Shown here: one piece after another, positions 15,285 to 38,105 of the stretch
Position numbering within the stretch: position 1 is the stretch's first letter
Layout: every line of letters starts with the position of its first letter
NCBI GenBank assembly: GCA_945947575.1
Contig: CAMEYM010000025.1
Location: 1-38,105, forward strand
DNA: 38,105 nt
From: Rhizobium sp. Q54
GTDB taxonomy: Bacteria > Pseudomonadota > Alphaproteobacteria > UBA2966 > CAIVPW01
Direction: 5' to 3'
Made by a program: the position numbers and the translations under genes
The notes under the pieces: generated by a model
Told to the model about the DNA's origin: nothing
Database searches by the model: none
Seen by the model: the letters and a program-made list of their open reading frames with translations, nothing else

Positions 15285-15471
15285 GACGTGTCCCTTTCCT
15301 CGAAACTGGTGATTTGCGCCGGATGCCGCGGGCGCCCTAGCGGCAGCCCCAAGTTCTGGCGTGCATCCTGGCGTACGGAAGGCGGCACCCTACCCTCGCC
15401 GCCCGGCCTCGGCAAGTTGGCGGAGGTAACGGTTCTTTGCGGCCCAGTCGCCGCTCCCGGCCAGGCCGCGC
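15285..15471. other. Intergenic stretch without a recognised gene
   Basis: It holds the upstream region of the parvulin gene, including its ribosome-binding site. I see no RNA gene or clear terminator hairpin with a T-run. Confidence 0.4.
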
Positions 15472-15759
15472 CTAGAACACCCAGGCCACGAAAAGGGTGA
15501 AAAAGATAAAGAACAGGAAAAACCCGGCGATCAGGTACTGAACCTCGCCCACCAGGCCATCTCCCGCCACCACGGCGAGGACCACCAGCAGCACCACCGA
15601 GGCGACCACGCCGGCGATGGCCGCGGTCTTCAGGCTGATGCCCTCGTTGAGGCCCGCGAACATCGATGCGGGCGCGCCGCCGCCGAAGGCGAGGAACGCC
15701 AGCGCCATCGCCGCAGCGACGACGATGCCGCCGGCGCCGACCCAGGCGAGGCCGTTCAT
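15472..15759 (-). CDS. Small three-helix membrane protein of unknown function
   Basis: This 95-residue hydrophobic protein has predicted membrane helices at about 5-26, 44-65 and 74-95. The last helix is very rich in Phe (FFLFFIFFTLFVAWVF) and ends at the C-terminus. No family is recognised. The helix pattern and start at ATG 15759 support real coding. It follows the PH-domain gene by 30 bp on the same strand, so the two probably form a unit. Confidence 0.6.
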   Translation of the reverse strand: MNGLAWVGAGGIVVAAAMALAFLAFGGGAPASMFAGLNEGISLKTAAIAGVVASVVLLVVLAVVAGDGLVGEVQYLIAGFFLFFIFFTLFVAWVF

Positions 15760-15789
15760 GCCCGACGCGCGCTCCGCGCGCTGAGACCG

Positions 15790-16206
15790 CTAGGCATTCT
15801 GATCGACGAGGTCACGAATGCGCTGGGGATGCGGCAGACCTTTGACGACGAGCTCGGGCTGGTCGCCCGAGGTGAAGATCGACACGGTGCCGGTGTCGAA
15901 GATGCGCTGGGTCACCGACTGGTGCACGCGCACCGAACGGATGCCCGCCGTGTGCAGCTCGGTCGTGGTGCGCGCCAGAAGCCCGTGACGCCACACTACC
16001 TCGCCGCGAGTGATCGTCAGGCGGTCGGTCAGACACTTCAGCCACCACACCAACAGGATGATGACGCCGAGGCCAGCGAGCGGCACAAGGATCAACGCCC
16101 CGATGAACGCGATCGGCGCGTTGCGAAACATGCGCGGATGCTCGTCGTAGAGGACGTTCGAGCCCGCGCGGCGGCCGGCGTCGATACTGGTGCTTGCGGT
16201 GTTCAT
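15790..16206 (-). CDS. Membrane protein with bacterial PH domain (bPH_2/YdbS-like)
   Basis: This protein of 138 residues has a short N-terminus, YDEHPRMFRNAP leading into a hydrophobic hairpin (about residues 30-58), and then the bPH_2 domain: WLKCLTDRLTITRGEVVWRHGLLARTTTELHTAGIRSVRVHQS. The family is common in small membrane proteins with no settled function. The start could be ATG 16206 or ATG 16224; neither has a clear ribosome-binding site. The open frame up to 16302 carries no family signal. Confidence 0.75.
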   Translation of the reverse strand: MNTASTSIDAGRRAGSNVLYDEHPRMFRNAPIAFIGALILVPLAGLGVIILLVWWLKCLTDRLTITRGEVVWRHGLLARTTTELHTAGIRSVRVHQSVTQRIFDTGTVSIFTSGDQPELVVKGLPHPQRIRDLVDQNA

Positions 16207-16394
16207 AGGCACGTATGTGGGCATCAAGCGGGGCCGTTGCCAGCCCGCAGCGAGGGGCCCCGCGCGGGATTGCCGCCACGAAAGGGGTAGGAGTAACCCC
16301 ATTGGAATAGAGGCGCCTCGGACTCATGTAGACACGCATCACCGGTTGCGCCGAGCAGCGCGCCCTTTGGTCCCTCTGGTTAGGAGCACACGCG

Positions 16395-17051
16395 ATGGCG
16401 AGACGGAACACCTTCCTTCGATCCACTACGGCACTTGCCCTGGGCGCGGCTCTGGCCGGGATGCCCCTCGGATTCGCAACCACGGGATGGCAACTGTTCG
16501 ACAATCAGGCAGCCTACGCGCGAGACGGTGACGACTCAGGCGACAACCGGGGGCCGGGCGGCGGCGATCGTGACGATGACGGCGATCGCGGGCGCGGTGG
16601 CGACGATGGCGCGGACGATGACGACCGGGGTCGCGACAGGGGCGATGATGATGCCGATGACGACGATATCGGCGATGACCGTGGCCGCGGCCGTGGCGCG
16701 GACGACGGTCCCGGTGACGTCCGCGGACGCGAACCCGAGGCGGACCGTGGGCGCGGCATCGAACCTGGCGACGATCGGGGCGGTGATCGCAATCGGCCGG
16801 CCTTCGCCGACACCAACTTCGAGACGCAGGGCGAACGCATCCGCACGTTTGTTGCGATCGCCACGGCGCTTGGGCTCGACCCGAATGTCGGAGCACAGCA
16901 GGCCAATCTCGGCACCCCCCTTGAGCGCGTTGTGCCGCCGGCCGTCCGCCTACCGGACGGCGCTTGGCGAACGGCCAACCTGGACGTCAACCGCGACGGC
17001 ACGGTGAACCAACTCGACCTAACGGCAGCGCGTCTGGGTGCGCGGCCCTAG
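16395..17051 (+). CDS. Secreted Asp/Arg/Gly-rich protein with one dockerin-like calcium loop
   Basis: A TAGGAG ribosome-binding site (16381-16386) precedes the ATG. The 218-residue protein begins with a signal peptide (about 1-40). Residues 44-135 are almost entirely Asp, Arg and Gly in irregular repeats. A short folded region follows (ERIRTFVAIATALGLDPN). The last 25 residues read NLDVNRDGTVNQLDLTAARL, a single type I dockerin-like/EF-hand loop. True dockerins have two such repeats. No cellulosome genes are near. The middle is intrinsically disordered and could bind calcium or other cations. I infer an exported cation-binding protein of unknown role. Confidence 0.7.
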   Translation: MARRNTFLRSTTALALGAALAGMPLGFATTGWQLFDNQAAYARDGDDSGDNRGPGGGDRDDDGDRGRGGDDGADDDDRGRDRGDDDADDDDIGDDRGRGRGADDGPGDVRGREPEADRGRGIEPGDDRGGDRNRPAFADTNFETQGERIRTFVAIATALGLDPNVGAQQANLGTPLERVVPPAVRLPDGAWRTANLDVNRDGTVNQLDLTAARLGARP

Positions 17052-17186: not shown

Positions 17187-17249
17187 GTTGGAGCGGGTGA
17201 AGGGAATCGAACCCTCGTCGTAAGCTTGGGAAGCTTCTGCTCTGCCATT
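17187..17249 (-). repeat. attL: displaced 3' fragment of tRNA-Gly
   Basis: It is identical over 63 bp to 22843-22905. It contains the anticodon arm, T arm, acceptor 3' strand and CCA of tRNA-Gly(CCC), but the 5' half differs from 17250 onward. It is therefore the chromosomal 3' end displaced by integration and is not a working tRNA gene. Confidence 0.92.
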
Positions 17250-17318
17250 CGGCTCCGCCGAGACTCACCCAACGGGACCAAGCGTTTGGGCCGAGACAAT
17301 GTACCTCCGTTTCGTGCG

Positions 17319-17340
17319 CTGGCCACACCCTGGCCACAGT
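17319..17340 (+). repeat. Left integrase arm-type repeat pair
   Basis: Two copies of CTGGCCACA stand in tandem with a 12-bp period, 70 bp inside attL and just upstream of the integrase gene. A near copy (18 of 22 bases) occurs in the same orientation at 22733-22754 near the right end. This is the arrangement expected of arm sites bound by a tyrosine integrase N-terminal domain. Confidence 0.6.
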
Positions 17341-17350
17341 CAGGGGCGCT

Positions 17351-18331
17351 ATGGCGAACATACGGAAGCATCGGAACAAGTGGCAGGTCCAGGTCCGGAG
17401 GCAAGGTCATCACCTAACCCGCTCGTTTGCGTCCAAGGGCGATGCCGAGGCGTGGGCGCGCCTCCAAGAGACAAAGATTGATCGGGCGGACCTACCCCCG
17501 GACCGGCGGACTCTGCGGGGGCAAACCCTCGGCGATCTCCTTCGACGCTACGCTGCGGAGGTTACACCCGGCAAACGGTCGGCCCGACATGAGCGGAACC
17601 GGATCGACCGACTGGCACGGGCAAGCATCGCCGCGACCCCGTTGGAACACCTAAGGCCATCGCACCTGTCGGACTTCCGCGACGAGCGGCTGAAGTCGGT
17701 AGGCCCCCAAGCCGTGTTGCACGACCTCAACCTCATTGGTCATGTCCTGCGGACCGCCATCCAGGAGTGGGGCGTGGCGCTCAAGGACAACCCCATGGCG
17801 CAGGTCAGGAAGCCACGCATGCCTCGGGCCCGGGATCGGCGCCTTGAGCGTGGCGAGCTTGAGAGGTTGCTTGCTTGCGCGAGCGGCGACCCCCATCCGC
17901 AGTACTTGCCGCGCTTGATCGCCCTGGCGGTGGAAACCGGCATGCGCAAATCCGAACTCCTGGCCCTCCAGTGGGACGACGTGGACTTCGAAGCCCGCTT
18001 GGCCCGCATTAGCGTTTCGAAGAACGGCCTCCCTCGCAGCGTTCCCCTTAGCACCAGGGCGGCAGACGCTATCAAGGCCCAGGCCCAGGGCGCCCGGCGC
18101 ATCTTCCCCGTTTCGGTGGCCGCGCTTCGGTTTCACTGGGACCGGCTGCTCGCGCAGTTGGGGGTTCGGAACCTGCACTTCCACGACCTACGGCACGAGG
18201 CCGTCAGCCGCCTGTTCGAACGTGGGCTTTCGGTGCCCGAGGTTGCGCTGGTCAGCGGCCACAAGGACCCCCGGCAACTGTTCCGGTACACCCATCCCCG
18301 GGCGGAGGACATAGCGCGGCGGCTGCCCTAG
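17351..18331 (+). CDS. int: Tyrosine recombinase (integrase) of the element
   Basis: This 326-residue phage-type integrase has an N-terminal arm-binding region (RKHRNKWQVQVRRQG), a SAM-like core-binding domain (about 55-150) and a catalytic domain from about 160. All catalytic residues are present: Arg199 (TGMRKSELLAL), Lys224 (SVSKNGLPRS), His278 and Arg281 (HFHDLRHEA), His304 (SGHKD) and nucleophile Tyr313 (LFRYTHPRAEDIA). It is therefore probably active. It sits next to attL and points into the element, the usual arrangement. I infer that it acts on the tRNA-Gly repeat. Confidence 0.95.
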   Translation: MANIRKHRNKWQVQVRRQGHHLTRSFASKGDAEAWARLQETKIDRADLPPDRRTLRGQTLGDLLRRYAAEVTPGKRSARHERNRIDRLARASIAATPLEHLRPSHLSDFRDERLKSVGPQAVLHDLNLIGHVLRTAIQEWGVALKDNPMAQVRKPRMPRARDRRLERGELERLLACASGDPHPQYLPRLIALAVETGMRKSELLALQWDDVDFEARLARISVSKNGLPRSVPLSTRAADAIKAQAQGARRIFPVSVAALRFHWDRLLAQLGVRNLHFHDLRHEAVSRLFERGLSVPEVALVSGHKDPRQLFRYTHPRAEDIARRLP

Positions 18332-18363
18332 CCACAGGGCGAGGTTGACGCTAGGAGGGGGGC

Positions 18364-19128
18364 ATGCCTCGCCCCAAGTCAGTCATCGGTTGGGTCGCCG
18401 TCACCCCAGCCAACGTAATCCTCGACCCTGTGGATGAGGCGGCGATCGTTGTGGGCATCGAGACTGCGCGAGGTGCTGCCGTAGATTTGCGACAGCGGTC
18501 CGACCTACTCGACAGCGTGCGCACCGCCATCGCGGACTATCGTGCCGAAATCCGCAACTACGCGGAGGGGCCGACCCAAGGCCAAGTCCGGCAAAGCCTT
18601 GCCCGTATATCCGCTGCCCCCGCCAACCGCCAATACGCACAGCGATTGCGTGGCGTTGACGAGTTTACGCGGGTTCACTTGACGCGCCTCGGCATAGACG
18701 CCACCCACCTCGACGCATTGGCTCAGGAGACCGAGCAACTGGCGGACAGACAAGATCGCTTGACGGGCGCAGCCGCCCAGATCATCCGGGCTCTCGACGC
18801 AGGCCAGGGACCGTCCCTCGCTGACGTGCTCGCAACGCCGTTTGACCTCGTGGGGCAGGTCCCAGGTGAAAGCCGCCACCCTCGCCTCGGTTTCATCGCG
18901 CGCATGGCGGAGGTCTTTGTGGAGTTCACAGGAGCCGCGCCTTCTTGCAGCTACGACCGACTTGGCGACGGCGAGTATTCGGGCAACTTCCTGTCGTTCG
19001 CGGTGGCCTGCAACGTCGCAGCGACACGGGACCAGCCACAGTCTTTCGGGCAGCAGGTGAGCGAGGGGCTCACCGAATGGCGAAAAGGCGCCCGCGAGCG
19101 CGCGAAGGACGAGGCAACACTGCGGTAG
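18364..19128 (+). CDS. Unknown protein of the element, integrase-linked type
   Basis: A strong ribosome-binding site (AGGAGGGG, 18353-18360) precedes ATG 18364, 33 bp after the integrase. The 254-residue protein is soluble and mostly helical. The part at about 175-215 (GFIARMAEVFVEFTGAAP, then GEYSGNFLSFAVACNVA) resembles the C-terminal pattern of many uncharacterised proteins encoded beside integrases in alphaproteobacterial islands. No catalytic motif is visible. The role is unknown. Confidence 0.7.
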   Translation: MPRPKSVIGWVAVTPANVILDPVDEAAIVVGIETARGAAVDLRQRSDLLDSVRTAIADYRAEIRNYAEGPTQGQVRQSLARISAAPANRQYAQRLRGVDEFTRVHLTRLGIDATHLDALAQETEQLADRQDRLTGAAAQIIRALDAGQGPSLADVLATPFDLVGQVPGESRHPRLGFIARMAEVFVEFTGAAPSCSYDRLGDGEYSGNFLSFAVACNVAATRDQPQSFGQQVSEGLTEWRKGARERAKDEATLR

Positions 19129-19242
19129 GAGCGTCGAGGAACAGGCGATGTTCCGTGACGTTCCTGGGACCGGTTTCGCCCACGGGGATATTTGACACGA
19201 CATCGGCGCCGTGGTGCGCCCGTACCAAGTGTGTAGTGTCCC

Positions 19243-20373
19243 ATGAAAAACGACGATAATCGCTCAGACCATCCCGACCAGAACCAACATCCCGAACAGA
19301 AGCCAGACGCCAAACAGAACCGCTGGCAGGAACCCACCGGTCCAGAACCCTGGCCTCAAGCGGTGAACGGCTGTGAGGTCGCAGACGACATCGCTGCCTC
19401 GATTTCCCGCCACTTGATCTTGAAGTCCGGCGCTCCCGAGGTCGTCGCCCTCTGGGTGATGGCAGCGCACGCGTACAACTCGTTCGACGTCAGTCCGCGC
19501 TTGGCGTTCCTGTCGCCCATGCCGGAGTGCGGAAAGACCACAGCCCTCTCGATCGTTCGCCAACTAGTGCCGCGCGCACTCATGACGAGCAACGTGACCC
19601 CGGCAGTCATCTTCCGCATCATCGAGAAGTGTTGTCCTACCCTCCTAATCGATGAGGCAGACACGTTCTTCACCAACAACGAGGAACTGCGCGGCATCCT
19701 CAACTCCGGTCACACGCGGGCGGGAGCGATTGTCGTCCGGTGCGAGGGCGATGACTACAATCCGCGCGGGTACTCGACCTGGGCACCGATGGTGATCGCA
19801 AAGATTGGCTCGCTGCCGTCCACGCTTCATGGCCGCTCGTTCGTCATTCCCATGCAGCGCAAGCGCCGTGGTGAGCGGATCGAGCCCTTCCGCCCAGAAC
19901 GCGACAACCGCGTAGCCGTGCTCGGGCGCAGATCGGCGCGTTGGGCAGTTGATCATGCTCGCGAACTCGCCAATGCGGAACCGTCGATCCCGTCGGCCCT
20001 CCGCAATCGCGCAGCGGACAATGCCTTCCCGCTGTTGGCAGTTGCGGACGCACTTGGTGGACATTGGCCGGAGACAGCGCGGCGATGGTTGCCGGAGTTC
20101 CTGAGCGACGATGCCGACGACGCGTTCTTGCCCGACGTGCGCGCAGCTTTGGCGACGCTGCCCGATGATGGCCAGGACTTCGTGCCCTCTAGCGCGCTCG
20201 CGGGCGCCCTCTCAAAGATGGAGGATCGGACCTGGGGTCAACTGACGGCGGCGGCGATAGCGTCGAAGCTCAGGCCGTATGGGATCGCGCCCAAAGCCCA
20301 GCGCAAGGGCGAGGATGTGTTGCGCGGTTACAAGCGCAGCGAGTTCGCTGACGTGTTCGCCCGGTATCTGTAA
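19243..20373 (+). CDS. DUF3631 P-loop protein, candidate replication ATPase of the element
   Basis: This 376-residue protein starts with a polar, Gln/Asp-rich tail (1-40). The P-loop domain follows, with Walker A SPMPECGKTT (91-100, Lys98) and Walker B LLIDEADTFF (134-143), then the DUF3631 hallmark ELRGILNSGHTRAG. The C-terminal third (GQLTAAAIASKLRPYGIAPK) looks like the winged-helix end seen in these proteins. DUF3631 domains occur in phage, plasmid and island proteins, often fused to primase-like domains; here no primase domain is present. An inverted-repeat cluster starts three bases after its stop, which suggests an origin-acting protein. No clear ribosome-binding site precedes the ATG; TTGACA occurs at 19192-19197 without a good -10. 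Confidence 0.85.
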   Translation: MKNDDNRSDHPDQNQHPEQKPDAKQNRWQEPTGPEPWPQAVNGCEVADDIAASISRHLILKSGAPEVVALWVMAAHAYNSFDVSPRLAFLSPMPECGKTTALSIVRQLVPRALMTSNVTPAVIFRIIEKCCPTLLIDEADTFFTNNEELRGILNSGHTRAGAIVVRCEGDDYNPRGYSTWAPMVIAKIGSLPSTLHGRSFVIPMQRKRRGERIEPFRPERDNRVAVLGRRSARWAVDHARELANAEPSIPSALRNRAADNAFPLLAVADALGGHWPETARRWLPEFLSDDADDAFLPDVRAALATLPDDGQDFVPSSALAGALSKMEDRTWGQLTAAAIASKLRPYGIAPKAQRKGEDVLRGYKRSEFADVFARYL

Positions 20374-20375
20374 GA

Positions 20376-20499
20376 GGTCGCAACACCGCTACAGTCCAGT
20401 ATTTCTGCGGGTTTCCGGACGATCCGGGTCGCAACATTGTTGCACCCTGGACTCATTAGAGAAGGGCAGCTTTCCTGGACTTGTAGCGTTGTTGCGGTC
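20376..20499. repeat. Ordered iteron-like inverted-repeat cluster, candidate origin
   Basis: Four 10-mers related to GGTCGCAACA occur: forward at 20376-20385 and 20427-20436 (identical), reverse at 20438-20447 and 20490-20499. The outer pair extends to 24-25 bp arms with about 21 matches that also share GTCCAG. The inner pair forms GCAACA-T-TGTTGC. The order is two forward then two reverse, with two-fold symmetry. It lies directly after the DUF3631 gene in a 206-bp gene-free gap. No T-run follows, so a terminator is unlikely. Confidence 0.6.
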
Positions 20500-20579
20500 T
20501 CGCCCCCCTGGGCGCCGCAAAGTTGGCGAAGTCCGCGCTTAGCTTTCATCCAGGCGACACAATTCGACGGCGGATGTGA

Positions 20580-20846
20580 ATGGAACGAATTCGATGTTCC
20601 TGCGGAACGATCAACCGAGTGCCGGTGGGCCGCGCGGGTCGGCCGCTTTGCGGTAAGTGCAAGCAGCTCCTTCCCAACCAGGTTCCGGCCGACCACGACG
20701 TCGGCGAGGAAATGGCCCGCATCATGGCCGAGGACCTAAGGCCACACGAGCCCAAGTTAGTGGATCGGATTGTGGGTGCCGCCTTTGCCCCCCCTGCGCA
20801 AAGTTGTTGGTTCTGCCGAGCAGGTCCTCGCTGCGACGAACCTTAG
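20580..20846 (+). CDS. Small zinc-finger protein of the element
   Basis: This 88-residue protein has an N-terminal zinc-ribbon-like half, CSCGTINRVP (Cys6, Cys8) and LCGKCKQLLP (Cys24, Cys27), which resembles the N-terminal zinc finger of thioredoxin 2. There is no thioredoxin domain. A second Cys group (CWFC and a later Cys) lies at the C-terminus. The C-terminal 25 codons overlap the next gene in another frame. A regulatory or DNA-binding role is possible but not shown. Confidence 0.55.
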   Translation: MERIRCSCGTINRVPVGRAGRPLCGKCKQLLPNQVPADHDVGEEMARIMAEDLRPHEPKLVDRIVGAAFAPPAQSCWFCRAGPRCDEP

Positions 20847-21444
20847 GCGCTGGATCGCCTACAAGAATGGTTCGCTGCCGGTCCAATTGATCGCTCAGCA
20901 GATCGAAATCGAAATCGGCGATAGTCGAGGCTATCGCCACAGCGAGTCGTTTCGCGGCACCTTATCTCTGACGCCATTTGGTGAAGCAGACGAGTTTTAC
21001 AGGGACGAACGCGCACGACTTGAGCGAAGCATCGAACTTGATGATGCTCACCAAACGGCAACCATTCCCTTGAGCGTCCGACTCTGGTTGGGCACCGGCC
21101 AGGTTCTCACGTCCCGACGGTGGATGACCGTCCTCCGCGAGGGGCGGTACCCCACGACCCTCCCTCGTGACCTTTGGGACCTTGTTCTTGGCCCCTGGCT
21201 ATTGCGCGCGGAAGGCAAAGACCCAAGCCACACTCCGGAAGGGCACGGCGGCCATGGAGTACCGGACGGCTGGGAACACAGGCAGGCCTGTGCGCTTATG
21301 CGCCAGCCACCATCATTCTACAGAAACGCGCTCGACTCAGTATCCGGAGGAACCAATTGGCACGACGCTACCTACATGATGGTCCGAGTTACCAATCCGC
21401 CTCCACTGCCGACCTGGAAGGACGAGGCGGACGAATGTCACTAA
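20770..21444 (+). CDS. Unknown protein of the element
   Basis: The open frame is 224 codons from a GTG at 20770, inside the previous gene; no better start or ribosome-binding site is visible. The readable body starts near LRRWIAYKNGSLPVQLIAQQ and contains SFRGTLSLTPFGEADEF and SVRLWLGTGQVLTSRRWM. No membrane segment, signal or known motif is seen. The overlap in a +1 phase means that a single-base error could have split one longer zinc-finger protein into two. The function is unknown. Confidence 0.5.
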   Translation: MWVPPLPPLRKVVGSAEQVLAATNLRRWIAYKNGSLPVQLIAQQIEIEIGDSRGYRHSESFRGTLSLTPFGEADEFYRDERARLERSIELDDAHQTATIPLSVRLWLGTGQVLTSRRWMTVLREGRYPTTLPRDLWDLVLGPWLLRAEGKDPSHTPEGHGGHGVPDGWEHRQACALMRQPPSFYRNALDSVSGGTNWHDATYMMVRVTNPPPLPTWKDEADECH

Positions 21445-21472
21445 GAGCCGGATCGTGGTGAGGGGAGCGCGA

Positions 21473-21898
21473 TCAACGGCCCCTGAGCCCCGCGATACGG
21501 GCCAACCGCTCTATGGAGCCCAGCACATCGTTGGGGTCAACGAATTGGTTGTTCATTCGCAAGTCGGTCTTTGTCTCGACTTTGTTTGTGTATGCGCCAA
21601 TGGTGCGGCCCATTAGGTCGAGCGCACCCTTCACGGCCCCGTACGAGCCATTTGCGAAGGCCTCATCCCGTAAGCGGCGCAGGTCAGCTATCAACTCGTC
21701 CAACGAAATTTGGTTTCGCTCAGCCGCCGCGCGCTGCAACTGCGCCACCCTGGCTCGCACATCAGGTTTCCTCAGGTTCTCGTAGCCGATCTGGGCAGCG
21801 GTCCGTGCACTGTAGCCAGAGCGAATAGCCGCCTGTGTCGCGTTGAGATCGAGCAAGTACTCATCACAGAACTTGGCCTGTTTGTTCGTCATCTTCAT
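21473..21898 (-). CDS. terS: Terminase small subunit (TerS), stand-alone
   Basis: This 141-residue protein of the Terminase_2 type has an N-terminal HTH region, MTNKQAKFCDEYL followed by NATQAAIRSGYSA, and the repeat-containing helical segment after NLRKPDVRARVAQ. Small terminases bind the packaging site of phage DNA and hand it to a large subunit, which is absent here. The start is ATG 21898 or ATG 21892; 39 upstream codons of the open frame lie inside the neighbour and are rejected. A TATAAT box lies 31 bp upstream. In satellites such as SaPIs a private TerS redirects helper packaging; that role is inferred here. Confidence 0.88.
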   Translation of the reverse strand: MKMTNKQAKFCDEYLLDLNATQAAIRSGYSARTAAQIGYENLRKPDVRARVAQLQRAAAERNQISLDELIADLRRLRDEAFANGSYGAVKGALDLMGRTIGAYTNKVETKTDLRMNNQFVDPNDVLGSIERLARIAGLRGR

Positions 21899-21929
21899 TT
21901 GACAATCGCAATAAATGAAACTGCGTAAT

Positions 21930-21935
21930 ATTATA
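21930..21935 (-). promoter_or_regulatory. Candidate -10 box of terS
   Basis: A perfect TATAAT on the minus strand lies directly after the stop of the zinc-ribbon gene, in the most AT-rich stretch of the window. The predicted transcription start would leave about a 25-nt leader before terS. The -35 region is poor, so an activator may be needed. Confidence 0.45.
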
Positions 21936-22571
21936 TCACAGAGGAAATGGCCACTTGAGCCTCTTGCGGCCAGCGCTCCGTTCCTTGATTTCATGTTTTT
22001 CAAGCACCGCGCCATCGGGCGACAGCAACGTCTCTATGATCGCCACCCTGACCCGGAACCCACCAGAGTCTCTGGCCGTAAAGGTGCCTCCGCAGCCTTC
22101 GTGCTCGATGTCCAGGGAGTGCGGGGTGGCAGAAACCTCGCGGGGACGTACAAATCCGACAGTCTTCGGTGATCCGCAGGTAAGGCAGCGTGCATGTGAC
22201 CCGATCGGGCGGTGCGTCGATACCTGGACCGCGCCCTCTAGCCGCTCAATTTCGGCCTGAAGGACCCGCACGTCCCACCAGTCAACTCCGGGAAGCGGGC
22301 GGCGCGATCCAAGTCCAAAAAACCCGCCCTTCAAGGTGAGGGACTTGAGGCGGCCCTTTAGCCCTTCGATCGTTCGGACCGCTTCCTCCCTAACTTCGAT
22401 TGGGGGTGCCTCGATCACCTCGATACCCCGACAGTCGGAACACCACCCCATCCAAGGAAACGTTTGCACTCTGTCGCCGTTGGGGAGGACGTACCGCACC
22501 ACGCCAATCCCCAAGTCCGACGCGCGAATGTCGCAGTTCGTGCACTCGATATTGCAGAAGGTGATCGACAC
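21936..22571 (-). CDS. Zinc-ribbon protein of unknown function in the element
   Basis: This 211-residue protein has an N-terminal zinc ribbon with Cys10-x2-Cys13 and Cys44-x2-Cys47 (MGWCSDCRG). A central linker with a helical segment (VLQAEIERLEGAV) leads to a second cysteine group, Cys129-x2-Cys132 (RCLTCGSPK) with HEGCGG at 157-162. The opening (MSITFCNIECTNCD) resembles scattered bacterial hypothetical proteins of unknown role. It is upstream of terS on the same strand and is the rightmost gene of the element. It may act in host takeover or defence, but nothing in the sequence proves this. Confidence 0.7.
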   Translation of the reverse strand: MSITFCNIECTNCDIRASDLGIGVVRYVLPNGDRVQTFPWMGWCSDCRGIEVIEAPPIEVREEAVRTIEGLKGRLKSLTLKGGFFGLGSRRPLPGVDWWDVRVLQAEIERLEGAVQVSTHRPIGSHARCLTCGSPKTVGFVRPREVSATPHSLDIEHEGCGGTFTARDSGGFRVRVAIIETLLSPDGAVLEKHEIKERSAGRKRLKWPFPL

Positions 22572-22842
22572 GCCGATACCGGTCCGACTTTTCTATAGCG
22601 AAATTTTGGGGGCCGATTTCTGAACGCGTAGGCAAGGGTCTGTTTTCCCTCCCCGGGGGGACCCCACCCCGTACCTCACTTGGAGAGCGGGCAATCGTTC
22701 ATTTGTGGTTGCCGTTCTCGGCCCACTGCTCTCCGGCCACAAACTGGCCACACTGAGCGGCCAAGGTTGCGCGTTCGGCGGCTCGACCGCCGTTACCGTG
22801 GTGGGGCTAACGCACTGATACGGAAAGGTTCGTTGTTCGGAC
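22572..22842. other. Right end of the element, gene-free
   Basis: No coding frame is supported here. The stretch holds the right arm-type repeat pair (22733-22754) and the hairpin CGGCGG/CCGCCG near 22780. It is the non-coding attP side of the element. Confidence 0.5.
22733..22754 (+). repeat. Right integrase arm-type repeat pair
   Basis: It matches 18 of 22 bases of 17319-17340 in the same orientation and repeats CTGGCCACA-like units with a 12-bp period. It lies 88 bp inside attR, so the circular form would have arm sites on both sides of the core. Confidence 0.6.
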
Positions 22843-22905
22843 GTTGGAGCGGGTGAAGGGAATCGAACCCTCGTCGTAAGCTTGGGAAGCTTCTGCTCTG
22901 CCATT
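22843..22905 (-). repeat. attR: repeat that restores the tRNA-Gly 3' half
   Basis: It is identical to 17187-17249. The element's copy here completes the tRNA-Gly gene, whose 5' end (22906-22918) is chromosomal. Confidence 0.92.
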
Positions 22906-22918
22906 GAGCTACACCCGC
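22845..22918 (-). tRNA. tRNA-Gly, anticodon CCC
   Basis: The minus strand gives a complete 74-nt tRNA with encoded CCA. The acceptor stem pairs GCGGGTG with CACCCGC, the D arm is GCTC...GAGC, the anticodon loop is TTCCCAA and the T loop is GGTTCGATTCC. The anticodon CCC lies at 22884-22886. One pair at the base of the anticodon stem is G-A. The gene is the integration site of the element to its left. Confidence 0.95.
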
Positions 22919-34211: not shown

Positions 34212-37200
34212 CTACCGGATCGACAAGGTCTCGGAGCCATCGAGGTCGGTCAGCGCCGCGTCGATGTCGAGGGCAATGGCGGCGTCCTCGTTTCCGGCAG
34301 CATCGGCGGCCGCAAGCGTCGGGGACTCGGCGGTGACGTCCTGGCCGTCGAGGGACACGGAGACGCTGGTCGTCTCGCTGTCACCGTCGTTCTCGGTCGA
34401 TGTCGACGAGACCTGCAGCGCGAACTGCTCGGTCACCGTCGCGGGGACGAACATCGTCAGGCCCGAGAGCTGGCCCGCCGTCAGGGTGTAGGTACCGTCG
34501 CCGTTGTCGGTGCCGGCCGAGAGCGTCACGCCCTCGGGCAAGCCGCCGACAGTGATCGACAGCGTCTCGGAGCCGTCGGCGTCGGTCGCGGCGGTGGTGA
34601 TGGTAAGCGGGAACTCCGTTCCGGCGACCGCGCTGGACGGCTCACCGAGGATGTCCTCGTCGAGCGTGAAGGACAACTCCGCGCCACCCTTGAGGCTGAC
34701 GTACGCGTTGGTGCCCAGGTTGCCCAGAATGCCGCTAATCAGGTTGAGGAAGCCACCGCCACCGCCCGTCACCTGGCCGTCGGTCTCGGCCTGCATCACG
34801 CTGCCTTCAACCGTAATGCTGTTGACCAGGATGCCGGCGTTGTTGCCGACTGGCTTGATCGAAACGATCGGGTCAGAGCCCGGCTCGAGCTCGAGCCCGT
34901 CGACCGTGATCGTCTGCCAGTTGCCCTGGGCGCCGTGCGAGACGTTCGTGGTGTACACGCCCGCGGACACGCCGTTGACGAACACCTCGAACTGGCCGGT
35001 GTTGCCGTTGCCCTGCTTGGCAACGCTGAGCGTGATCGACTCGACGACGTCGCTGGCTACCGCATCAACCGTTTCGCCTACGCCGAGCGTGGCAGTGAGC
35101 GTGGGTGCGTCGGCGACGCCGCGTAGATCGACGTGGATGTTCTCGGTCGTCCCGACCGTCTGACCGTTCTCGGTCGAGCGGGCGGTGACCGTTAGGTCGA
35201 AGTCGACGTTGGAGTTCACGACCGGCGTCACCGTCAGACCGGTGAGCTGGCCCGGCGTCAGCGTCCAGGTGCCGTCACCGTTGTTGGTGCCGGCCGAGAG
35301 CACGGCGCCGGTCGGCACGCCGCCGATGACGATCGAATGGGTCTCGGAGCCGTCCATGTCGGGGAATACCGCGCCGACGTTGAGCGGGACGGCATGGTCC
35401 TCGAGGCCGACCACGTCGCTCACCGTCACGGTCGCCGCATCGGCGACGCCGGTGATGTTGACGTCGAAGCTCGCGACCGTGGAGGCCGTGCTGCCGTTCT
35501 CACCCTCGGTCGCCGTCGCAGTGACGGTGAGAGAGAAGTCGTCCGCCGAGTTCGCGACGGGGAGGACCTTGAGGTTGGCGAGGTCCGCCGGGGTCAGCAC
35601 GGCGACGCCGTTGACGATCGGGATGGCGTGGTTGTCGGTGCCGGCCGTCAAGATCGCGCCCGCCGGGAAGCCGGCGATGCTGATCGACTGCGACTCGGAG
35701 CCGTCGGCGTCCGGGAACAGCGCGGTGATGTTGAGCGCGATCGGGCCGGCGTCCTCGGCAACGGTGATGTTGCCGACGGTGACCGTCGGCTCATCGGCAA
35801 CGCCGGTGATGGCGACCGTGAAGGTCTCGGTGTCGGAGGCGGTCGTGCCGTCCTCAGACGAGGTCGCAGTGACCGTCAGGTTGAGGTCGGTGGCGTTGTT
35901 CAGGCCCGGCGTCAGGGTCAGGCCGGTCAGCTGGGCGGGCGTCAGAGTCCACGTGCCGTCGCCGTTGTTGGTGCCGGCCGACAGCGTCGCGCCGCCGGCC
36001 ACGCCCGAGATGGTGATGACCTGGTTCTCGGAGCCGTCGGTGTCGGTGAACGTCGCGCCGATGTTCAGCGGGATGGCGGCCGTGTCTTCGGCGGCCGTGA
36101 TGTTGCCGACCGTGACCGTCGGCTCATCGGCAACGCCAGTGACGGCGACGTCGAGGGTCGCGACCGTGGTCGCGGTATCGCCGTCGGCCTCGGTCGAGGT
36201 CGCGCTGACGGTCAGCGTGAAGTCGTCAGAAGAATCCGCGGGCGGCGTGACCTTCAGGCCGCTGAGCTGGGCGGGAGTGAGCGTCCAGGTGCCGTCGCCG
36301 TTGTCGGTACCAGCCGACAGCGAAGCACCTTCCGGCACGCCGGAGATGGTGATGTCGGTGATCGTCTCGGAGCCGTCGAGGTCATCGAGCGCGGCGGTGA
36401 TCGCCAGCGGGATCGCCGAGTCCTCGGCGCCGGAAGCATTGGCGACCGTAACCTTCGGCTCATCGGCAACGCCGGTCACCGATACGGTCAGAACGACCGG
36501 CTCGGACGCAGCGGTCGTGCCATCCTCGGCCGTGATCGCCGTCACCGTCAGGTCGAAGTCGTCGGACGAGTCGGCCGGGGGCGTGATGGTCAGGCCAGCG
36601 AGGTCCGCCGCCGCGACGGTCCACGTGCCGTCGCCATTGTCGGTGCCGGCCGAGAGCACCGCACCCTCGGGCACGCCGGCGATCGAGACGGTCATCGTCT
36701 CGGAGCCGTCCATGTCCGCGAAGTGCGGCGCGATGGCGAGCGAGATCTCGCTGTCCTCGGCGCCCGCGGCGGCTTCCACCGTCACGGTTGGCACGTCGGC
36801 GACGCCCGTCACCGTGACGGTGAGCAGCACGTCGTCGGAGAACGCGATCGTGCCGTCCTCGGCCGTAACCGCGGTCACCGTCAGCGCGAAGTCTTCCGAG
36901 GAATTGGCCGGGGGCTTGATCGCCAGACCGGCCAACTCGGTCGTCGGCACGAGCCACACGCCGCCGCCAGAGTCAGTGCCAGCCGACAACACGGCGCCTT
37001 CCGGAACACCGCTGACGGCGACCACGGACATCTCGGAGCCGTCCATGTCGGGCAGGTGCACGCCCACGTCGAGCGGAATGAAGGCATCTTCCGCGCCGGT
37101 CGTGTCGGTCACCGTCACCGTCGCCTGATCGGCAACGCCGGTGACGACGACGTCGAGCGTCGCAAGGGTGGTCGCGCTGTCGCCGTCGGTCTCGCTCGAA

Positions 37201-38105
37201 GTCGCGCTGACCGTTAGCTCCATGTCGTCGGAGGAATTGGCCGGCGGCGTGATCGTCAGGCCTTCGAGCTGGGCCAGCGTCAGCGACCAGGTGCCGTCGC
37301 CGTTGTCGGTGCCCGCCGAGAGCGCAGCTCCAACCGGAACACCGGAAATGGTGATGTCGGTGATGGTCTCGGAGCCGTCGAGGTCGGCGAGCTGCACGTC
37401 GATGTTGAGCGGGATCGCGCTGTCTTCCTCGCCACCAATGCTGGAAGCGACGACCTGCGGGCCGCCGGCAACGCCGCTGACGGTCACGTCGAAGGTGGCG
37501 ATCGTGGCAGCCGTGCCACCCGCGCCTTCGGCCGCGACCGCGGTCACCGTAAGTGTGAAGTCGTCGTCCGAGCCGGGCGGAGGCGTGATCTGCAGGCCGG
37601 CCAGCTGGGACGGCGTCAGCGTCCAGGTGCCGTCGCCGTTGTCGGTGCCGGCGGACAGGAGCGCGCCCGAGGGCACTCCGCTGATCAGGATGTTGGCGAT
37701 CTGCTCGGAACCATCGACGTCATCGAGCGCAACGGCGAGGTCGAGGGCAATCGGCTCGCCTTCGGAACCAGTGACGTCGTCTACCTCGACGCGCGGCGCG
37801 TCGGCGACGCCCGTGACGGTGACGGCAAGCGTCCTGAACGCAGACGCACCCGCACCACCCGCGGCCTCACCGCTCATCGCGGTGACGGTCAGGGTGAAGT
37901 CGGCGTCCGAATCGTCGGGCGGCGTGATGGTCAGACCGGTGAGCTGCTCCGGCGTCAGCGACCAGGTGCCGTCGCCGTTGTCGGTACCCGCCGACAGCGC
38001 GGCACCGGCGGGCACGCCGGCCACAGTGATGCCGGTGATGGACTCGGAGCCGTCCGTGTCATTCAGCGCGACGGCGATGTTGAGGGAGATCGAGTTGTCT
38101 TCCAG
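34212..38105 (-). CDS. Giant repeat adhesin (cadherin-like/T1SS-143-type repeats), 3' end, cut by window edge
   Basis: The frame is open from the right edge (LEDNSISLNIAVAL...), giving at least 1297 residues. It is made of repeats of about 110 residues with the pattern EDxAIPLxI, DxDGSE, GVPxGAxLSAGTDNGDGTW, LTPxQLxGLxITPP, DFTLTVTA and VTGVAD. About eight full copies come first. A unique beta domain follows (about 34780-35060, with VFVNGVSAGVYTTN and NWQTITVDGL), reminiscent of a calcium-dependent CBM. One more repeat and part of another come last. Such proteins are surface adhesins, usually exported by type I secretion. Here the protein stops in mid-repeat (DLDGSETLSIR) without the usual C-terminal calcium-binding repeats and secretion signal, so it may be truncated. 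Confidence 0.85.
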   Translation of the reverse strand: MEDNSISLNIAVALNDTDGSESITGITVAGVPAGAALSAGTDNGDGTWSLTPEQLTGLTITPPDDSDADFTLTVTAMSGEAAGGAGASAFRTLAVTVTGVADAPRVEVDDVTGSEGEPIALDLAVALDDVDGSEQIANILISGVPSGALLSAGTDNGDGTWTLTPSQLAGLQITPPPGSDDDFTLTVTAVAAEGAGGTAATIATFDVTVSGVAGGPQVVASSIGGEEDSAIPLNIDVQLADLDGSETITDITISGVPVGAALSAGTDNGDGTWSLTLAQLEGLTITPPANSSDDMELTVSATSSETDGDSATTLATLDVVVTGVADQATVTVTDTTGAEDAFIPLDVGVHLPDMDGSEMSVVAVSGVPEGAVLSAGTDSGGGVWLVPTTELAGLAIKPPANSSEDFALTVTAVTAEDGTIAFSDDVLLTVTVTGVADVPTVTVEAAAGAEDSEISLAIAPHFADMDGSETMTVSIAGVPEGAVLSAGTDNGDGTWTVAAADLAGLTITPPADSSDDFDLTVTAITAEDGTTAASEPVVLTVSVTGVADEPKVTVANASGAEDSAIPLAITAALDDLDGSETITDITISGVPEGASLSAGTDNGDGTWTLTPAQLSGLKVTPPADSSDDFTLTVSATSTEADGDTATTVATLDVAVTGVADEPTVTVGNITAAEDTAAIPLNIGATFTDTDGSENQVITISGVAGGATLSAGTNNGDGTWTLTPAQLTGLTLTPGLNNATDLNLTVTATSSEDGTTASDTETFTVAITGVADEPTVTVGNITVAEDAGPIALNITALFPDADGSESQSISIAGFPAGAILTAGTDNHAIPIVNGVAVLTPADLANLKVLPVANSADDFSLTVTATATEGENGSTASTVASFDVNITGVADAATVTVSDVVGLEDHAVPLNVGAVFPDMDGSETHSIVIGGVPTGAVLSAGTNNGDGTWTLTPGQLTGLTVTPVVNSNVDFDLTVTARSTENGQTVGTTENIHVDLRGVADAPTLTATLGVGETVDAVASDVVESITLSVAKQGNGNTGQFEVFVNGVSAGVYTTNVSHGAQGNWQTITVDGLELEPGSDPIVSIKPVGNNAGILVNSITVEGSVMQAETDGQVTGGGGGFLNLISGILGNLGTNAYVSLKGGAELSFTLDEDILGEPSSAVAGTEFPLTITTAATDADGSETLSITVGGLPEGVTLSAGTDNGDGTYTLTAGQLSGLTMFVPATVTEQFALQVSSTSTENDGDSETTSVSVSLDGQDVTAESPTLAAADAAGNEDAAIALDIDAALTDLDGSETLSIR

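Follow-up and report, generated by a model that had tools for sequence, protein, structure and literature searches.

Among described phage satellites, the PICIs have a published gene order of integrase, replication genes, origin and terS, with the TerS of the island directing preferential packaging of island DNA, as is known for the SaPIs (PMC6092414). The minimalist islands of the Vibrionaceae (PICMIs) are located next to fis and encode AlpA and a DUF3987/DUF5906 primase, and no TerS has been reported from them; one of them, PICMI115, is 6,110 bp long and shows that a satellite of this size can be packaged into a full-size head as a concatemer of eight copies, with no genes for remodelling (PMC10803314). 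PICI-like elements have also been described in mycobacteria, including phiRv1 and phiRv2 (PMC10654092), and in a published survey the DUF3631 family appears under the name "RepAM" as the protein that initiates replication of pMEA300 and many AICEs (PMC3218068). Our literature search found no paper that joins DUF3631 with satellites. Here we describe an element in a tRNA gene of an uncultured bacterium, Rhizobium sp. Q54, in which the recognized functions on board are only insertion, self-copying and a packaging signal, and which is therefore most likely a very small parasite that travels in particles made by another virus. We favor, with a probability of roughly 0.6, its interpretation as a minimal, PICI-like phage satellite.

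The window (i.e., the whole 38,105-nucleotide stretch of DNA analysed) contains a single tRNA gene according to ARAGORN, namely an intact minus-strand tRNA-Gly(CCC) gene at 22845-22918, and the longest repeat of the region is a 63-bp perfect direct repeat (17187-17249 and 22843-22905). The right copy (attR, 22843-22905, minus strand) is the 3' part of the intact tRNA gene, and the left copy (attL, 17187-17249, minus strand) is a truncated 3' part of tRNA-Gly(CCC), a remnant still recognized as a tRNA by Rfam (31.8 bits). In a sister species of the same genus (G002) the site is empty, with left flank, single tRNA-Gly and right flank contiguous (86% identity over the left flank at 15400-16255 and 83-88% over the right flank), and in another genome of the genus (G004) one tRNA copy adjoins the left flank. 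The element therefore corresponds to 17187-22842 (5,656 bp, plus one att copy), and its placement between perfect 63-bp repeats in tRNA-Gly(CCC), as claimed in the original prediction, is borne out by both the repeat search and the empty site. Its G+C content is 62% vs. 68-69% for the flanks, it is present in a single copy in its own genome, and the best matches of the whole element in plasmid DNA span the tRNA part only. These features mark it as a discrete piece of foreign DNA inserted in tRNA-Gly(CCC).

At the left end lies int (17351-18331, plus strand), a tyrosine recombinase of 326 aa (PF00589, 1.5e-27; phrog_1, 1.1e-57) whose nearest relatives, at 44-50%, occur in other genomes of the same class. 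It is followed directly by orf2 (18364-19128, plus strand; 254 aa), an orphan without matches, and then by rep (19243-20373, plus strand), which encodes a DUF3631/RepAM-type AAA+ replication protein of 376 aa (PF12307, 1.7e-31). Further downstream are a small Zn-ribbon protein of 88 aa (20580-20846, plus strand), whose match to Zn_ribbon_Thio2 (5e-5) is weak and below the Pfam cut-off, and orf5 (20770-21444, plus strand; up to 224 aa), an orphan without matches whose true start probably lies further inside, given the overlap of the ORF with the Zn-ribbon gene. On the opposite strand are terS (21473-21898, minus strand), a terminase small subunit of the SF6/SPP1 type with 141 aa (PF03592, 9.6e-24; phrog_51, 5.8e-28), and, upstream of it, orf7 (21936-22571, minus strand), an orphan of 211 aa with CxxC pairs and no matches. 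The Pfam and phrog matches thus confirm the intact integrase, the DUF3631 protein and the stand-alone terminase small subunit that had been recognized from the letters of the sequence, alongside four orphan genes (orf2, orf5, orf7 and the Zn-ribbon gene).

The reported lack of structural genes, portal, large terminase and repressor was also upheld, since profile searches of the main ORFs found no structural gene, TerL, portal, capsid, tail or repressor, and the small and antisense ORFs had no Pfam match, and therefore no AlpA, excisionase or repressor recognized among them. Likewise, no relaxase, mobilization protein, FtsK/TraB, AlpA, MerR or HTH family was found among the main, small and antisense ORFs; defence-system profiles had no match in the element, and a promoter and terminator scan gave no more signals than expected by chance. 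The orf2, Zn-ribbon, orf5 and orf7 genes had no relatives in the DUF3631 loci listed (at least 152; see below), nor did orf2, orf5 and orf7 in the phage collection searched, nor orf7 among 385 genomes of the class. Their products may serve excision, induction or interference with a helper. An AlphaFold2 model of orf2 from its single sequence was predicted to be helical (pLDDT 42) and was discarded as unusable.

In the replication protein, the Walker A (G97-K98) and Walker B (D137-E138) residues and R198 are invariant in an alignment of 47 homologues. A search of solved structures by sequence gave no match for it. In its AlphaFold2 model (pLDDT 92), the predicted core (residues 26-288) superimposes on MCM helicases with Z 17.7 and 3.1 A over 242 residues at 12% identity. 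Among the best Foldseek matches of the model was PriRep1 (7pds), a SaPI-type initiator, and poxvirus D5 and the NrS-1 protein were matched as well. Many of the DUF3631 homologues that we analysed exceed it in length, and some of these have additional regions at the N-terminus, toprim-like or of other kinds; the protein of the window has neither a primase domain nor an extra N-terminal region, so that it would need a primase, and its DNA a polymerase, from the host or the helper.

Directly behind rep is a 128-bp imperfect palindrome (20374-20501), which includes a nested hairpin of GCAACATTGTTGC as well as GGTCGCAACA in two direct copies; these copies and their inverted relatives are located right 3' of the DUF3631 stop codon. 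Its folding is significant (z of -4.5 to -5.3 vs. dinucleotide shuffles), compared with a mean z of -0.1 (sd 1.0) for 37 other windows of the element in the same test. This palindrome takes the place of the "iteron-like cluster" that the original prediction had seen beside the DUF3631 gene, as the hexamer clustering does not exceed chance (four GCAACA copies in 140 bp, equalled by half of the null sequences). The position of the palindrome suggests an origin; a pac site or a terminator are other possible readings.

The TerS protein matches the solved SF6 TerS (3zqp) at 8.8e-13 and is the only Terminase_2 match among eight genomes of the family. The original prediction had suggested looking for a helper prophage in the same genome; we found none with the TerL profiles phrog_2 and phrog_9, which had no match anywhere in this genome (95.7% complete). 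The helper, if there is one, is virulent, absent from this strain, or was missed.

When set beside the described systems, the element shares with PICIs of the SaPI type an integrase at one end with a specific att site and its own terS with no TerL or structural genes (a feature of some PICIs). It also has an initiator-like protein, the model of which has PriRep1 among its best fold matches, followed by a significant palindrome as a candidate origin; its order of int, rep, palindrome and terS agrees with the published one. However, the initiator belongs to a different family (DUF3631/RepAM), the element is only about 5.7 kb long, and no capsid-size or interference gene was recognized, nor was AlpA (Gram-negative PICIs) or an Stl/Rpr repressor (Gram-positive PICIs) among its main, small and antisense ORFs. 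It resembles the PICMIs in size, small gene number, lack of capsid remodelling and expected concatemer packaging, and PICMI115 shows that the view of known satellites as usually larger, while right, has an exception already about as small (PMC10803314). It differs from PICMIs in having DUF3631, TerS and a tRNA-Gly site, with no AlpA, DUF3987/DUF5906 primase or fis site found in the element. Searches for a P4 alpha-type primase-helicase or psu/delta/sid found no such families in the element, and it has none of its own capsid, portal and TerL that characterize capsid-forming PICIs and tailed-phage prophages. The mycobacterial PICI-like elements (phiRv1/phiRv2 class) are also small and have an integrase but carry capsid genes, as opposed to TerS only; in one phage record the DUF3631 homologue bears the label "Rv2655c", and because of this name phiRv1 and phiRv2 may be relatives of the element. 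The AICEs and RepAM plasmids of Actinobacteria have in common with it an integrase and a DUF3631/RepAM initiator, often in tRNA genes, but the AICEs carry an FtsK/SpoIIIE- or TraB-type transfer protein where the element has TerS instead. Hence, the element lacks tested defining features of PICMIs, P4, capsid-forming PICIs, AICEs and prophages, and it has neither AlpA nor Stl, the regulators found in PICIs; in its proposed working it resembles a PICI, but we do not class it as one.

To place the element among its relatives, we assembled at least 152 usable DUF3631 loci from scans of bacterial genome contigs, viral contigs and other sources (for the viral contigs, a query made from the DUF3631 alignment worked and a single-sequence query confirmed nothing). 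DUF3631 was present in 14 of 385 genomes of the class. A backbone of tRNA, int and DUF3631 recurs among the loci listed, with an integrase family near DUF3631 in at least 90 of them (median 2.9 kb upstream), and tRNA-derived direct repeats enclose DUF3631 in at least 16 loci, 5.7-13.5 kb apart, the element of the window being the shortest of these att-bounded loci among the matches listed. The ORFs directly 3' of int in other elements showed no common family by BLAST. The gene set itself was recovered in part: the integrase, DUF3631 and a lone Terminase_2 TerS occur together in another genome of the same class (locus L033), where tRNA-Asp is followed by Int, DUF3631 and a ParB-like gene, then by TerS, encoded on the other strand, and by a host-like PAS gene (a search for element boundaries there found none), while relatives of the four remaining genes did not accompany them at any locus listed.

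In the bacterial-genome loci listed, at least 16 TerS-like ORFs were found in the 412 kb scanned at distances of up to 3 kb from DUF3631, as opposed to none in 487 kb of more distant sequence, as counted with home-made profiles for a class comprising Terminase_2, phrog_83-like, phrog_309-like and DUF5681 (the latter included though without proven function); this enrichment is partly biased because several of the profile seeds are themselves ORFs near DUF3631. Curated profiles confirmed TerS in five loci (L033, L056, L055, L080 and L046), and Pfam searches of 103 ORFs neighbouring DUF3631, a set that includes hand-chosen ORFs, assigned 8 to DUF5681, 2 to Terminase_4 and 2 to Terminase_2. The same bacterial-genome loci contained 2 TerL, 1 capsid and 0 portal genes, that is, not the constant company of capsid and large terminase that had been named beforehand as speaking against a satellite. 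The capsid-bearing viral contigs (L158, L164, L168, L176 and L179) also hold integrase and DUF3631 but with capsid, TerL and portal, and contigs of 9-11 kb (e.g., L158 and L164) combine DUF3631 with MCP, TerL and portal in a sample that is biased to viral genes. The TerS carriers are scattered across the DUF3631 tree, which makes repeated capture or loss likely and lends no support to a single-clade TerS lineage of DUF3631 elements. Since, in addition, the four orphan genes recur nowhere searched, the loci do not form a coherent new family, and the idea of an undescribed family, if this is to mean genes inherited together as a set, is not supported.

Alternatively, the element might be an integrative, plasmid-like one (a cousin of AICEs or mobilizable islands) that replicates by DUF3631/RepAM and moves by another route, e.g., conjugation in trans or transformation, its terS having been captured or serving as a regulator that binds DNA, with no use in packaging. 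DUF3631 is, after all, a known initiator of conjugative AICEs and occurs with Int and TraB/FtsK on small Streptomyces plasmids; moreover, single loci listed carry a relaxase or a NikA-like protein and most of the DUF3631 loci listed have no recognized packaging gene, and therefore the int-DUF3631 backbone by itself is not proof of a satellite. We nonetheless consider this hypothesis unlikely, given that no FtsK/TraB, relaxase or mobilization protein is encoded in the element and that TerS-like genes of several distinct families recur beside DUF3631 in the loci listed, where TerL is rare, a pattern pointing toward selection for packaging.

Even less probable, in our assessment, is a decayed prophage in which int, the replication gene and terS were left over after deletion of the structural genes. 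Relatives of int do occur within prophages and cargo islands, and the nearest viral relatives of TerS belong to ordinary phages, where they directly precede TerL and portal; however, the ORFs of the element are all open and compact, the two att copies remain identical, structural genes have left no fragments in it, capsid, portal and TerL are nearly absent from the genome-derived DUF3631 loci listed, and att-bounded relatives of similar small size exist. As for an assembly artefact or chimeric contig, the genome consists of 40 contigs and is probably metagenome-assembled, but both flanks are syntenic with those around the corresponding tRNA gene of sister species, and the element ends exactly at the tRNA repeat, which makes this explanation hardly credible.

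Under the favored satellite hypothesis, we infer from the anatomy of the element (i.e., its insertion, integrase, DUF3631/RepAM protein and lone TerS, all read from sequence), the PICI gene order (PMC6092414) and the concatemer packaging of PICMI115 (PMC10803314) a cycle of excision, replication, packaging and reintegration. Upon infection by a helper or its induction, Int would recombine the two 63-bp att copies and so release the element as a circle, in which int and the orf7-terS pair would be divergently oriented on either side of attP. The DUF3631 protein would then melt or unwind an origin, for which the palindrome just 3' of rep is the probable candidate, and the circle would be copied into concatemers with primase and polymerase from the host or the helper. 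The element's own TerS would bind a pac site on the element and direct the helper's large terminase there, so that the concatemers could be packaged headful-style, about 7-9 units per 40-50 kb head, in helper capsids that we propose to be unmodified because no capsid-remodelling gene is visible. Finally, the particle would deliver the DNA to a new cell, where Int would re-integrate the element in the tRNA-Gly gene.

A wider reading, which we advance tentatively as a possibility that may well prove wrong, is that DUF3631/RepAM elements represent a broad, largely unrecognized superfamily of AlpA-independent phage satellites across many bacterial phyla, with an integrase-initiator core at tRNA genes and repeated capture of packaging genes that differ among the elements (TerS from several families, perhaps DUF5681, only a capsid protein, or a complete head module). 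The element of the window would be the smallest of them, below any satellite with shown activity. The combination of Int, DUF3631 and a lone TerS at a tRNA gene provides a handle for searching for such elements, which finders with models lacking DUF3631 could miss. If the element of the window works as a satellite in the proposed way, about five and a half kb with one integrase, an AAA+ initiator and a packaging adaptor would suffice to parasitise a tailed phage, without AlpA, primase or capsid remodelling, and plasmid-type RepAM initiators would be linked to phage satellites.

The DUF3631 protein, a RepAM-type AAA+ replication protein, is accompanied by an integrase and a small terminase subunit (TerS, phrog_309) in a 9.1-kb element of Desulfobacterales (L055:4432-13625), which lies in tRNA-His between 89-bp att repeats. 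At another of the loci collected for comparison, the iteron-like repeats TATACGGAAAACAGTTCCTTTCCGTA / GTTCAGGTATACGGAAAAC occur in three places past the TerS gene (L033:12957-13184). At about ten loci, small ORFs near DUF3631 matched the TubC_N docking domain (L038:4915-5346 and nine similar ORFs), and several of these stand directly behind the DUF3631 gene.

An integrase 44% identical to that of the window element is found at tRNA-Val(GAC) in another genome of the same class (L317:6855-8597, i.e., G365:C13), where a lone TerS gene in the opposite orientation comes directly after it; from there to the end of the contig, no further phage gene occurs. It is possible that this pair represents a still smaller satellite than the window element or, alternatively, a remnant.

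Outside the element, the window carries an ORF rich in Asp, Arg and Gly immediately to the left (16395-17051), and the tRNA sequence is separated from the left-flank gene by 925 bp, compared to ~300 bp in G002, a sister species with an empty tRNA-Gly site. A very long minus-strand ORF (34212-38024; 1270 aa) built from repeated cadherin-like units lies at the contig end.

DUF3631 also occurs together with capsid genes. An 8.4-kb acidobacterial element in tRNA-Ala (L043:6886-15319) encodes an integrase, DUF3631 and an HK97-type capsid protein, with neither large terminase subunit (TerL) nor portal recognised. Further, five viral contigs of 9-11 kb (L158, L164, L168, L176 and L179) combine DUF3631 with head genes (scaffold, portal, capsid protein and TerL), and those that contain an integrase gene, of the serine or tyrosine type, have it next to these genes. 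Tail genes were not recognised on them, and they resemble capsid-forming satellites whose initiator is of the RepAM type.
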